DNA of 64,000 nucleotides from Marmoricola sp. URHB0036 (GTDB lineage Bacteria > Actinomycetota > Actinomycetes > Propionibacteriales > Nocardioidaceae). The stretch's first letter is position 1, and each line of letters opens with the position of its first letter. The notes below the pieces were generated by a model that saw nothing but the letters and a program-made list of their open reading frames with translations, had not been told where the DNA came from and searched no databases. The DNA lies in NCBI RefSeq assembly GCF_000426045.1, contig NZ_AUEP01000010.1, positions 62,001 through 126,000 of the forward strand. The letters run 5' to 3'. Of the stretch, positions 10,429 through 39,040 are shown piece by piece. The translations under genes were made by a program, and so were the position numbers.

Positions 10429-10635
10429 TCAGAGGATGGCCTTGTTCAGGATGGCCTTGTTGAGGATCGCCTTGTTCAGGATGGCCTTGTTGAGGATGGC
10501 CTTGTTCAGGATCGCCTTCTGGGTCGGCGCCTTGGCGCTCGCTGCCGTGGCGGCCGGTGCGGCAACGCCGAAGGACAGGGCGGCGATCAGGAGGGCGGCG
10601 AAGAGGGTCTTGACCCGGATGCGGATCCTGCTCAT
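10429..10635 (-). CDS. secreted KAIL pentapeptide-repeat mini-protein (copy A)
   Basis: 68-residue protein of unknown function. Residues 1-34 form a clear Sec signal peptide: basic start, hydrophobic core at about 10-30, and an ASA cleavage site. The predicted mature part is KAPTQ followed by five KAILN units and a final KAIL, so every mature residue falls in a five-residue register and the protein stops exactly at Leu. The A-x-L-x-x spacing resembles pentapeptide repeats, but six units are too few for a stand-alone beta-helix; the lysines make it strongly cationic. AGGAG lies 6 nt before the ATG. A paralogue (37891-38079) has the same design, which argues strongly that this is a real gene. 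Confidence 0.8.
   Translation of the reverse strand: MSRIRIRVKTLFAALLIAALSFGVAAPAATAASAKAPTQKAILNKAILNKAILNKAILNKAILNKAIL
10432..10518 (-). repeat. 15-bp tandem coding repeat (KAILN units)
   Basis: Five full 15-bp units and one 12-bp unit encode KAILN x5 plus KAIL. Units differ mostly at silent positions (GCC/GCG, CTC/CTG), so the peptide repeat is kept while the DNA drifts. Confidence 0.9.
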
Positions 10636-10718: not shown

Positions 10719-10740
10719 TATTTCGCCCGAGTCCGAAATA
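10719..10740. promoter_or_regulatory. inverted repeat upstream of KAIL gene A
   Basis: TATTTCG-N8-CGAAATA, perfect seven-base arms, about 85 nt upstream of the KAIL gene start. It is AT-rich against its surroundings and looks like a dimeric-regulator operator; the regulator is unknown. Confidence 0.5.
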
Positions 10741-37407: not shown

Positions 37408-37460
37408 CGGGGACGTACGAGCCTTGAGTGGACGCGCCGATTCTGCCCGGTGCACCACGC

Positions 37461-37497
37461 CAGGGACCGCCCCCTTCCGGATCGGGGGTGGTCCCTG
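37461..37497 (+). promoter_or_regulatory. strong hairpin directly before acyP
   Basis: CAGGGACCGCCCCC and GGGGGTGGTCCCTG, fourteen pairs (one G.U) around a 9-nt loop, end 12 nt before the acyP ATG. It could act as a terminator for transcription coming from purB or affect acyP translation. Confidence 0.5.
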
Positions 37498-37509
37498 TTG
37501 GCTGGTTCC

Positions 37510-37782
37510 ATGGACAGCACTGCAGTCGAGGTCGTGGTGACCGGGCACGTCCAGGGCGTCTTCTTCCGGGCCGCGTTGCGCGAGCAGGCCGAGCAGCGGG
37601 GTGTGACCGGCTGGGTGCGCAACGAGCCCGACGGCTCCGTGCACGCCCATCTCGAGGGGCCGGTCGATGCCGTTCAGGACCTCGTGAGCTGGTGTGGCCA
37701 CGGCCCGCCGGCGGCCCGGGTCGAGGCGGTGCGGACCGCCGACGCCGAGCCGATCGGAGCCCCTTCATTCGAGTCCGGCTAG
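37510..37782 (+). CDS. acyP: acylphosphatase
   Basis: Hydrolyses acyl phosphates such as carbamoyl or acetyl phosphate. 90 residues, standard. The signature GHVQGVFFRAALREQA carries the catalytic Arg, and GWVRNEPDGSVHAHLEG the catalytic Asn. The start ATG follows a strong hairpin; no good ribosome site is visible between hairpin and start, so translation may depend on the structure. It is monocistronic, and the KAIL-repeat gene follows 108 bp later. Confidence 0.93.
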   Translation: MDSTAVEVVVTGHVQGVFFRAALREQAEQRGVTGWVRNEPDGSVHAHLEGPVDAVQDLVSWCGHGPPAARVEAVRTADAEPIGAPSFESG

Positions 37783-37797
37783 TTCCGATTCCGAATT

Positions 37798-37829
37798 GTC
37801 CGGTTTGTATACTTTAGTCCAAAACGGAC
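37798..37829 (+). promoter_or_regulatory. operator-flanked promoter of KAIL gene B
   Basis: Ten-base arms GTCCGGTTTG and CAAAACGGAC (one mismatch) flank TATACTTTAGTC, whose first six bases (37808-37813) are a consensus -10. A dimeric regulator here would cover the promoter core. Confidence 0.6.
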
Positions 37830-37844
37830 GTAGGCTGTCTCACA

Positions 37845-37867
37845 CGTTGGACCATCGGGGTCCAACG
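37845..37867 (+). promoter_or_regulatory. 5' leader hairpin of KAIL gene B
   Basis: CGTTGGACC-ATCGG-GGTCCAACG, perfect nine-base arms, just before the ribosome site GAGGGGAGGG. It would form at the 5' end of the mRNA. Confidence 0.55.
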
Positions 37868-37890
37868 ATGAGGGGAGGGAACCCATCATC

Positions 37891-38079
37891 ATGAGCTTGA
37901 AGAACCGTGGAATCCGTGGAGCGCTCGTAGCTGTCGCCGTGGCATTCGCCGTCGCCTCGATCCCCGCCGGCGGTGGCGCCGCCCAGGCCAAGGCACCGAC
38001 GAACAAGGCGATCCTGAACCACGCCATCTTGAACCACGCCATCCTCGACAAGGCGATTCTCGACAAGGCGATCCTCTGA
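37891..38079 (+). CDS. secreted KAIL pentapeptide-repeat mini-protein (copy B)
   Basis: 62 residues, paralogue of 10429-10635. A Sec signal peptide (residues 1-33, basic then hydrophobic, AQA cleavage site) is followed by a mature form of six pentads: KAPTN, KAILN, HAILN, HAILD, KAILD, KAIL. As in copy A, the mature part starts KAPT[N/Q], every residue is in register and the protein stops at Leu. Here His and Asp replace some Lys and Asn, so charge is mixed, whereas copy A is uniformly cationic; pairing between them is conceivable. It has its own promoter, a 5' hairpin, a GGGAGGG ribosome site and a terminator, so it is an independent gene. Function unknown. Confidence 0.82.
   Translation: MSLKNRGIRGALVAVAVAFAVASIPAGGGAAQAKAPTNKAILNHAILNHAILDKAILDKAIL
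38005..38076 (+). repeat. 15-bp tandem coding repeat ([K/H]AIL[N/D] units)
   Basis: Four full units and one 12-bp unit. Ala-Ile-Leu is invariant while positions 1 and 5 vary (Lys/His, Asn/Asp). Confidence 0.9.
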
Positions 38080-38093
38080 TCCAACCTGCTCCT

Positions 38094-38129
38094 CGAGGGG
38101 TGTGCCGGCGACCGCCGGTGCACCCCTCG
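38094..38129 (+). terminator. terminator of KAIL gene B
   Basis: CGAGGGGTG ... CACCCCTCG with an inner CCGGC/GCCGG stem and two internal mismatches, followed by TCGGTTTG. It begins 15 nt after the stop. Confidence 0.65.
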
Positions 38130-38149: not shown

Positions 38150-39040
38150 GTGCACAACATCCCCGACGCCCCGACCATCGAGGGCGCCACGCACCTCCAC
38201 TCCGGGAAGGTGCGGGACCTCTACCGTCTCGACGACGGCCACCTGCTGATGGTGGCCAGCGACCGGATCTCGGCCTACGACTTCGTGCTGGACACCAGGA
38301 TCCCGGACAAGGGCGAGATCCTGACGCGGATGTCGTTGTGGTGGTTCGACCAGCTCGCCGACCTGGTGCCCAACCACGTGGTCTCCACCGACGTGCCCGA
38401 GGCCGTCCGCGGTCGCGCGGTCGTCTGCGAGGAGCTCGCGATGTACCCGGTCGAGTGCGTGGCGCGGGGATACCTCACCGGCTCGGGGCTCCTGGACTAC
38501 CAGTCGACCGGCGAGGTCTGCGGCATCGCGCTCCCACGCGGACTGGTCGACGGCAGCCGGCTCCCGGCGCCGATCTTCACTCCTGCGACCAAGGCCGCGA
38601 TCGGCGACCACGACGAGAACGTCTCCTACGAGGCGGTCGTCAGCGACATCGGCCGCGACGCCGCCGAGCGGCTGCGCGACCTCACCCTGGAGGTCTATGC
38701 CCGGGCCGACGGCCTGGCGCGCGAACGCGGGATCATCCTGGCTGACACGAAGTTCGAGTTCGGCACGCGGCTCCGCGGTGACGCCGCCGGCGACGTCGTG
38801 CTGGGCGATGAGGTGCTGACCCCCGACTCCAGCCGCTACTGGCCCGCCGACGAGTGGCAGCCCGGCCGCACCCAGCAGTCCTACGACAAGCAGATCGTGC
38901 GCAACTGGCTCACCTCACCCGCGAGCGGCTGGGACCGGGCCTCGGGCGACCGGCCGCCGGCGCTGCCGGCCGAGATCGTCGAGCGGACCCGATCGCGCTA
39001 CGTCGAGGCCTTCGAGCTCCTGACGGGGGAGACGTTCTGA
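38150..39040 (+). CDS. purC: SAICAR synthetase
   Basis: Joins CAIR to aspartate with ATP. 296 residues of the longer (yeast-like) type. [28 protein letters not shown] at the N-terminus is the nucleotide-binding signature; [13 protein letters not shown] and [10 protein letters not shown] follow. GTG start from the leaderless hexamer. Its stop overlaps a possible CTG start of the next gene. Confidence 0.97.

Follow-up and report, generated by a model that had tools for sequence, protein, structure and literature searches.

KAIL, a small clade-restricted family of predicted tiny exported peptides in Marmoricola sp. URHB0036 and its relatives

Directly upstream of a gene that we take, by recognition, to be purC (SAICAR synthetase), a short open reading frame encodes a peptide ending in five pentads that share the letters AIL. 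The locus raises the question of what holds these letters in place and what role such a peptide could have. The window analyzed here is the whole stretch of 64,000 nucleotides (contig C9:62001-126000 of the genome denoted G000), and it contains this gene, copy B, as well as a second one, copy A (Table 1). The frame of copy B is intact over 62 codons and reads MSLKNRGIRGALVAVAVAFAVASIPAGGGAAQAKAPTNKAILNHAILNHAILDKAILDKAIL up to the stop codon. As the initial annotation had described, K/H and N/D vary in the pentads around an invariant AIL, and its designation as a diverged paralogue was right. At the DNA level, TRF reports a 15-bp array at 38001-38075 with 80% matches. The signal peptide of copy B is MSLKNRGIRGALVAVAVAFAVASIPAGGGAAQA, and cleavage is predicted between AQA and KAPT. 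Inspection of 12 aligned members showed a Sec-type signal peptide throughout (judged by eye from the basic N-terminus or n-region, the hydrophobic core and the AxA rule), with an A-x-A equivalent kept in most relatives.

Table 1. Coordinates of copy A, copy B and their flanking elements in the 64,000-nucleotide window.
Feature	Position	Strand	Remark
KAIL copy B, predicted exported pro-peptide, 62 aa	37891..38079	+	syntenic with relatives upstream of purC
Copy B, predicted Sec-type signal peptide, residues 1-33	37891..37989	+	read by eye
Copy B, linker KAPT	37990..38001	+	
Copy B, pentads NKAIL NHAIL NHAIL DKAIL DKAIL (n=5)	38002..38076	+	
Copy B, conserved upstream half-site AAAACGGAC	37821..37829	+	consensus WWWWCGGAC
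Copy B, putative -10 box TAGGCT	37831..37836	+	TANNNT among B-type genes; by eye
Copy B, 5' UTR hairpin GTTGGACC-ATCGG-GGTCCAAC	37846..37866	+	5' of ribosome-binding site; covarying pairs
Copy B, Shine-Dalgarno-like GGAGGG	37874..37879	+	
Copy B, 3' hairpin GAGGGGTGTGCCGGCGACCGCCGGTGCACCCCTC	38095..38128	+	probable terminator, no long T run; by eye
Acylphosphatase gene (PF00708)	37450..37782	+	upstream neighbor of copy B, outside the KAIL family
purC (presumed)	38150..39040	+	downstream neighbor of copy B; syntenic anchor of B orthologues
KAIL copy A, 68 aa, KAPT + QKAIL + 5 x NKAIL (six pentads)	10429..10635	-	
Copy A, conserved upstream half-site ATTTCGGAC	10731..10739	-	

Copy A lies between an Abi_alpha gene and a gene for a hybrid response-regulator histidine kinase, a position that is syntenic in G014 and in Marmoricola sp. 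RYN_217 (G013). In the latter, two KAIL genes appear to stand in tandem at the copy-A locus, on two contigs, the assembly being broken between them (L060, L065). The expectation that more members exist elsewhere in the genome held for one further gene, copy C, found at C1:626.7 kb in a search of the whole 4.83 Mb; its 71 residues include KAPT, QKAIL and six NKAIL, making 7 pentads. The predicted mature forms in G000 consist of KAPT followed by 5, 6 or 7 pentads, which gives 29, 34 and 39 residues for copies B, A and C, and AIL is invariant at the amino-acid level in 18/18 units. A DNA pattern for three AIL at five-residue spacing had no match in this genome other than those in the three KAIL genes (reversed control, 0), and among 391 genomes of the order it matched just one of the 390 others. 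This match, an 88-residue frame with NNLVSAILVSAILVSAILVSM (L106, G461 C154:2054-2091), is probably an unrelated repeat that arose by chance.

A 12-member profile places the KAIL family in 7 of 24 genomes of the genus (Nocardioidaceae), namely G000, G001, G002, G008, G009, G013, and G014, with about 15 genes in total, 14 and one truncated at the edge of a contig (L065). On the PurC tree these seven genomes group together as a single clade (support 97/95), which fits one origin. Each of the seven positive species has its B orthologue (copy B in G000) immediately before purC, and no KAIL gene was seen at this position in those other members of the genus for which the purC region was read. The orthologous group of copy B is thereby more widely conserved than the locus of copy A (7/7 versus 3/7 species), and in G001 and G008 only one KAIL copy was found each. 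A wide distribution was rejected: scanning GTDB 220 for KAIL(x)KAIL followed by a stop gave 11 matches, four of which are true members (three in Marmoricola sp. RYN_217 and one in Nocardioides aequoreus), and the remainder look like chance. The family-level profile search returned no strong matches outside the genus, and those of the family-wide HMM matches outside the genus that were read concerned the signal peptide only. An origin from mobile elements was likewise discarded, as tblastn gave no phage or plasmid match and no relative was confirmed in viral contigs. In another genus of the Nocardioidaceae (g19), a tiny exported peptide, MKKIIAATLLALTVAAGVAASPAQAADDTSSFKVRTLGIDWM, is near-identical in two species (L042, L049) and apparently unrelated. 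A literature search on the repeat found nothing relevant. On the sequence evidence, KAIL is a small, previously undescribed and clade-restricted family of tiny, presumably exported peptides.

The initial annotation had proposed that selection acts on the peptide pattern, and comparison of orthologues bears this out. In eight short B-type genes (six purC-linked genes and two second copies), pairwise comparison of the six AIL codons per gene yields 58 synonymous differences and not one nonsynonymous (pN/pS 0.00). The linker region, at 0.87, is close to neutrality, and the signal-peptide region (0.26) and the residues preceding AIL (0.45) are intermediate; as pairwise sums over related sequences, these values describe a pattern and do not constitute a formal test. 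Counts of synonymous and nonsynonymous changes within the arrays were dropped as the main argument in favor of the orthologues, because tandem duplication makes the units non-independent (copy A has a 30-bp period). Drift or frameshifts at the AIL positions, named beforehand as evidence against selection, were looked for in the orthologues and did not occur. Exchanges of I/V/L or A/S/G within AIL are absent from every unit, implying that the exact letters are required rather than general hydrophobicity. Almost every unit has a basic residue (K, R, H) before AIL, with S, N, and Q as exceptions. The combination of a constrained AIL with a near-neutral linker is the pattern of a pro-peptide in which a spacer precedes a recognized C-terminal word.

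Repeat number is not a constant of the family. Every relative from another genome than G000 carries just two of the AIL units, as KAILKAIL or KAILKKAIL, and these end no more than one residue before the stop codon, as in those ending in MNMKSRGIRGALLAVTVAIAVSAVPAAGGAADAAPKAPNKAILKAIL and KAPTSKAILKKAIL, the latter being exactly KAPT plus two pentads. The orthologue of copy B in Nocardioides aequoreus NRRL B-24464 ends in APKAPNKAILKAIL, and a member in G014 (C188) ends in AILK. More than two units are present in 3/3 complete genes of G000 and in 0/11 elsewhere, a clustering with a probability of 1/364 if the changes were independent, though the mature parts of copies A and C are nearly equal and may stem from a recent duplication, so that at most two independent events can be counted. 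Outgroups of the positive clade have no KAIL family member; either units were amplified in G000, or they were lost in the other lineages. Copy B combines a B-type signal peptide with a mature part of KAPT and pentads like that of copies A and C of the same genome, which suggests exchange between the paralogues or co-selection by one partner. With all three paralogues at 5, 6 or 7 units, the dose of repeats, or their valency, seems to be of importance to a common partner. The earlier proposal of a hetero-complex between a purely cationic copy A and an Asp-bearing copy B gained no support beyond the sequence, as acidic pentad residues (DKAIL) occur only in copy B of G000. The predicted mature peptides of the orthologues are single and short (about 14 residues), and this, together with the one copy in G001 and G008, makes a two-peptide complex unlikely as a general function.

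The KAIL genes look monocistronic, with conserved upstream and 5' UTR elements of their own, in line with the claim that each copy has its own promoter structures. B-type genes share a hairpin before the ribosome-binding site with 8 pairs, five of which have changed on both sides, and 92% of its cells are paired versus 22-61% in slid controls. A covariance model of this region (R1) recovered all B-type 5' UTRs at E ~4e-8 or better and otherwise weak sites only; it was built from the B-type genes themselves, and the informative part is the scarcity of other sites. A G+C-rich hairpin also lies downstream of the B orthologues. A-type promoters share the TTTCGGAC / GTCCGAAA element, of which the full dyad (TTTCGGAC-N16-GTCCGAAA) is found in a G013 relative (C198); the half-site of copy A corresponds to part of this dyad, which is degenerate in copy A. 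The consensus WWWWCGGAC has two sites in the 64-kb window, one ahead of each KAIL gene and at most ~105 bases from its start codon, against a chance mean of 1.18 sites anywhere; the motif was derived from these and other-species promoters and is supportive rather than independent evidence.

Neither element defines a regulon. The only non-KAIL sites that R1 finds are weak, e.g., before clpX: a KAIL-like 5' UTR hairpin lies just before a clpX-like gene in two genomes (L124, G009 C6:518942; L125, G002 C1:2627396). The dyad is almost KAIL-specific; among its extra sites, one falls in a whiB / penicillin-binding-protein promoter in each of two genomes. There, ATAGTCCGAAATGACTAGA, a near-copy of the A-type promoter element, is located between divergent whiB/wblE-like and penicillin-binding-protein-like genes (L143, G000 C14:30563; L145, G013 C83:2941), and regulation by a common factor is possible. 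A role of the copy B region as a purC leader or attenuator was rejected, given conserved hairpins of its own on either side and relatives located away from purC.

We tentatively favor the view that KAIL is a pro-peptide exported from the cell, with specific recognition of the xKAIL word at its C-terminus, and that it is likeliest a secreted oligopeptide signal organized like Phr. Phr pro-peptides are exported by Sec and carry a C-terminal pheromone of 5-10 residues; some hold 1-4 identical or slightly changed copies and are matured by extracellular proteases (PMC11343458). On this view, signal peptidase I would cut after AxA to free KAPT-(xKAIL)n, and the C-terminal xKAIL, either whole or trimmed by extracellular proteases to the size of a pentapeptide, would be bound sequence-specifically by a partner. 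Tandem units would multiply or diversify the mature peptide, as with Phr-type pro-peptides. The conservation of A-I-L fits such recognition, perhaps as a cell-to-cell signal.

The likeness to Phr (RRNPPA, Bacillota) lies in a short Sec-exported pro-peptide with a variable spacer and a C-terminal oligopeptide, and the arrays resemble the identical or slightly changed tandem pheromone copies of Phr3T and Phr105 (PMC11343458). In KAIL too, a constrained C-terminal oligopeptide follows a variable spacer (pN/pS 0.00 for AIL, 0.87 for the linker). In contrast to Phr, KAIL belongs to a different phylum, has several unlinked copies per genome and reaches 7 units rather than 1-4, and sequence homology to Phr was not found. 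A receptor gene next to the propeptide gene is the defining feature of RRNPP systems (PMC10075063), whereas no TPR receptor gene adjoins the propeptide gene at copy B, copy A or the other contexts examined. Because this defining receptor is absent, membership of RRNPPA is not claimed; KAIL could function in the manner of a Phr all the same. Across the contexts examined, different KAIL members had no gene neighbors in common, and neither a receptor nor an immunity gene was recognized in linkage with them. The more specific proposal, that the Actinomycetota have an oligopeptide signaling system of unlinked paralogous pro-peptides with tandem copies of one pentapeptide, amplified in concert to as many as 7 units, is in our opinion somewhat doubtful.

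The main rival to signaling is a structural or pentapeptide-repeat role, in which the pentads of a self-assembling surface peptide would form a short beta-coil or fiber and the repeat number would tune assembly. As in pentapeptide-repeat proteins (PF00805; Np275, HetL), the repeat has a period of precisely five residues, in which i-2 is A and i is L. Copy A scores 20.4 bits against a PF00805 cut-off of 20.2, 3/12 members match at E <= 1 (besides copy A, weakly, other G000 copies), and phmmer matched the Np275 chains 2j8k and 2j8i at E ~1e-4. Position i-1 is I, however, and not D/N, copy B remains below the cut-off at 15.1 bits, and the remaining members fail to match. A pentapeptide-repeat coil needs about 20 residues per turn; KAIL peptides have just 2-7 units in an exported part of ~14-39 residues, and two units, often four residues apart (KAILKAIL), are too few for a coil. 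AlphaFold2 modeled copies A and B as helices (mean pLDDT about 70) with no strands and no right-handed quadrilateral beta-helix or beta-solenoid, which is weak evidence, the inputs having held two and one sequences. We judge a structural role unlikely.

The short, hydrophobic and exported peptides are mostly cationic once cleaved (mature charge +7 for A, +2 for B and +2 to +4 for the short forms), as a membrane-active or antimicrobial, bacteriocin-like peptide would be. Cationic amphipathic peptides are recognized by their helical amphipathicity, however, and the helical hydrophobic moment of the arrays of copies A, B, and C is 0.04-0.07, below ~90% of shuffles; with almost no moment, an amphipathic membrane helix is unlikely. 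The short forms (0.28-0.67) are not exceptional compared to shuffles. Since AIL is conserved by strict letter and not by property, the charge of copy B is low, and no immunity or transport gene was recognized in the contexts examined, we regard this activity as quite unlikely.

A PDZ-type domain of an envelope protease or chaperone could bind the free C-terminal -AIL as a report on export or envelope stress. AIL stands at the stop codon in almost every member, which, together with the conserved upstream elements, would suit such a ligand, but this reading leaves the tandem expansion unexplained and the G014 member ending in AILK at odds with it, and we consider it improbable. An uncleaved single-span membrane peptide, like a type I toxin under the control of an antisense RNA or of the hairpin in the 5' UTR, would share the small size, multiple copies and structured 5' UTR, but is very improbable given the conserved AxA motif, the conserved word outside the membrane part and the lack of a recognizable antisense RNA gene.

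Although too short to be named properly by any Pfam or NCBIfam model, the KAIL members bear a clean mark of purifying selection on a word of three letters. Signals of Actinomycetota are typically small molecules made by enzymes; if the KAIL peptides are signals, peptide communication would enter a phylum in which such signals prevail (PMC10075063), and the natural series of repeat numbers (2, 5, 6, 7) would bear on why pro-peptides have tandem copies. If they are structural, KAIL would represent a minimal pentapeptide repeat.
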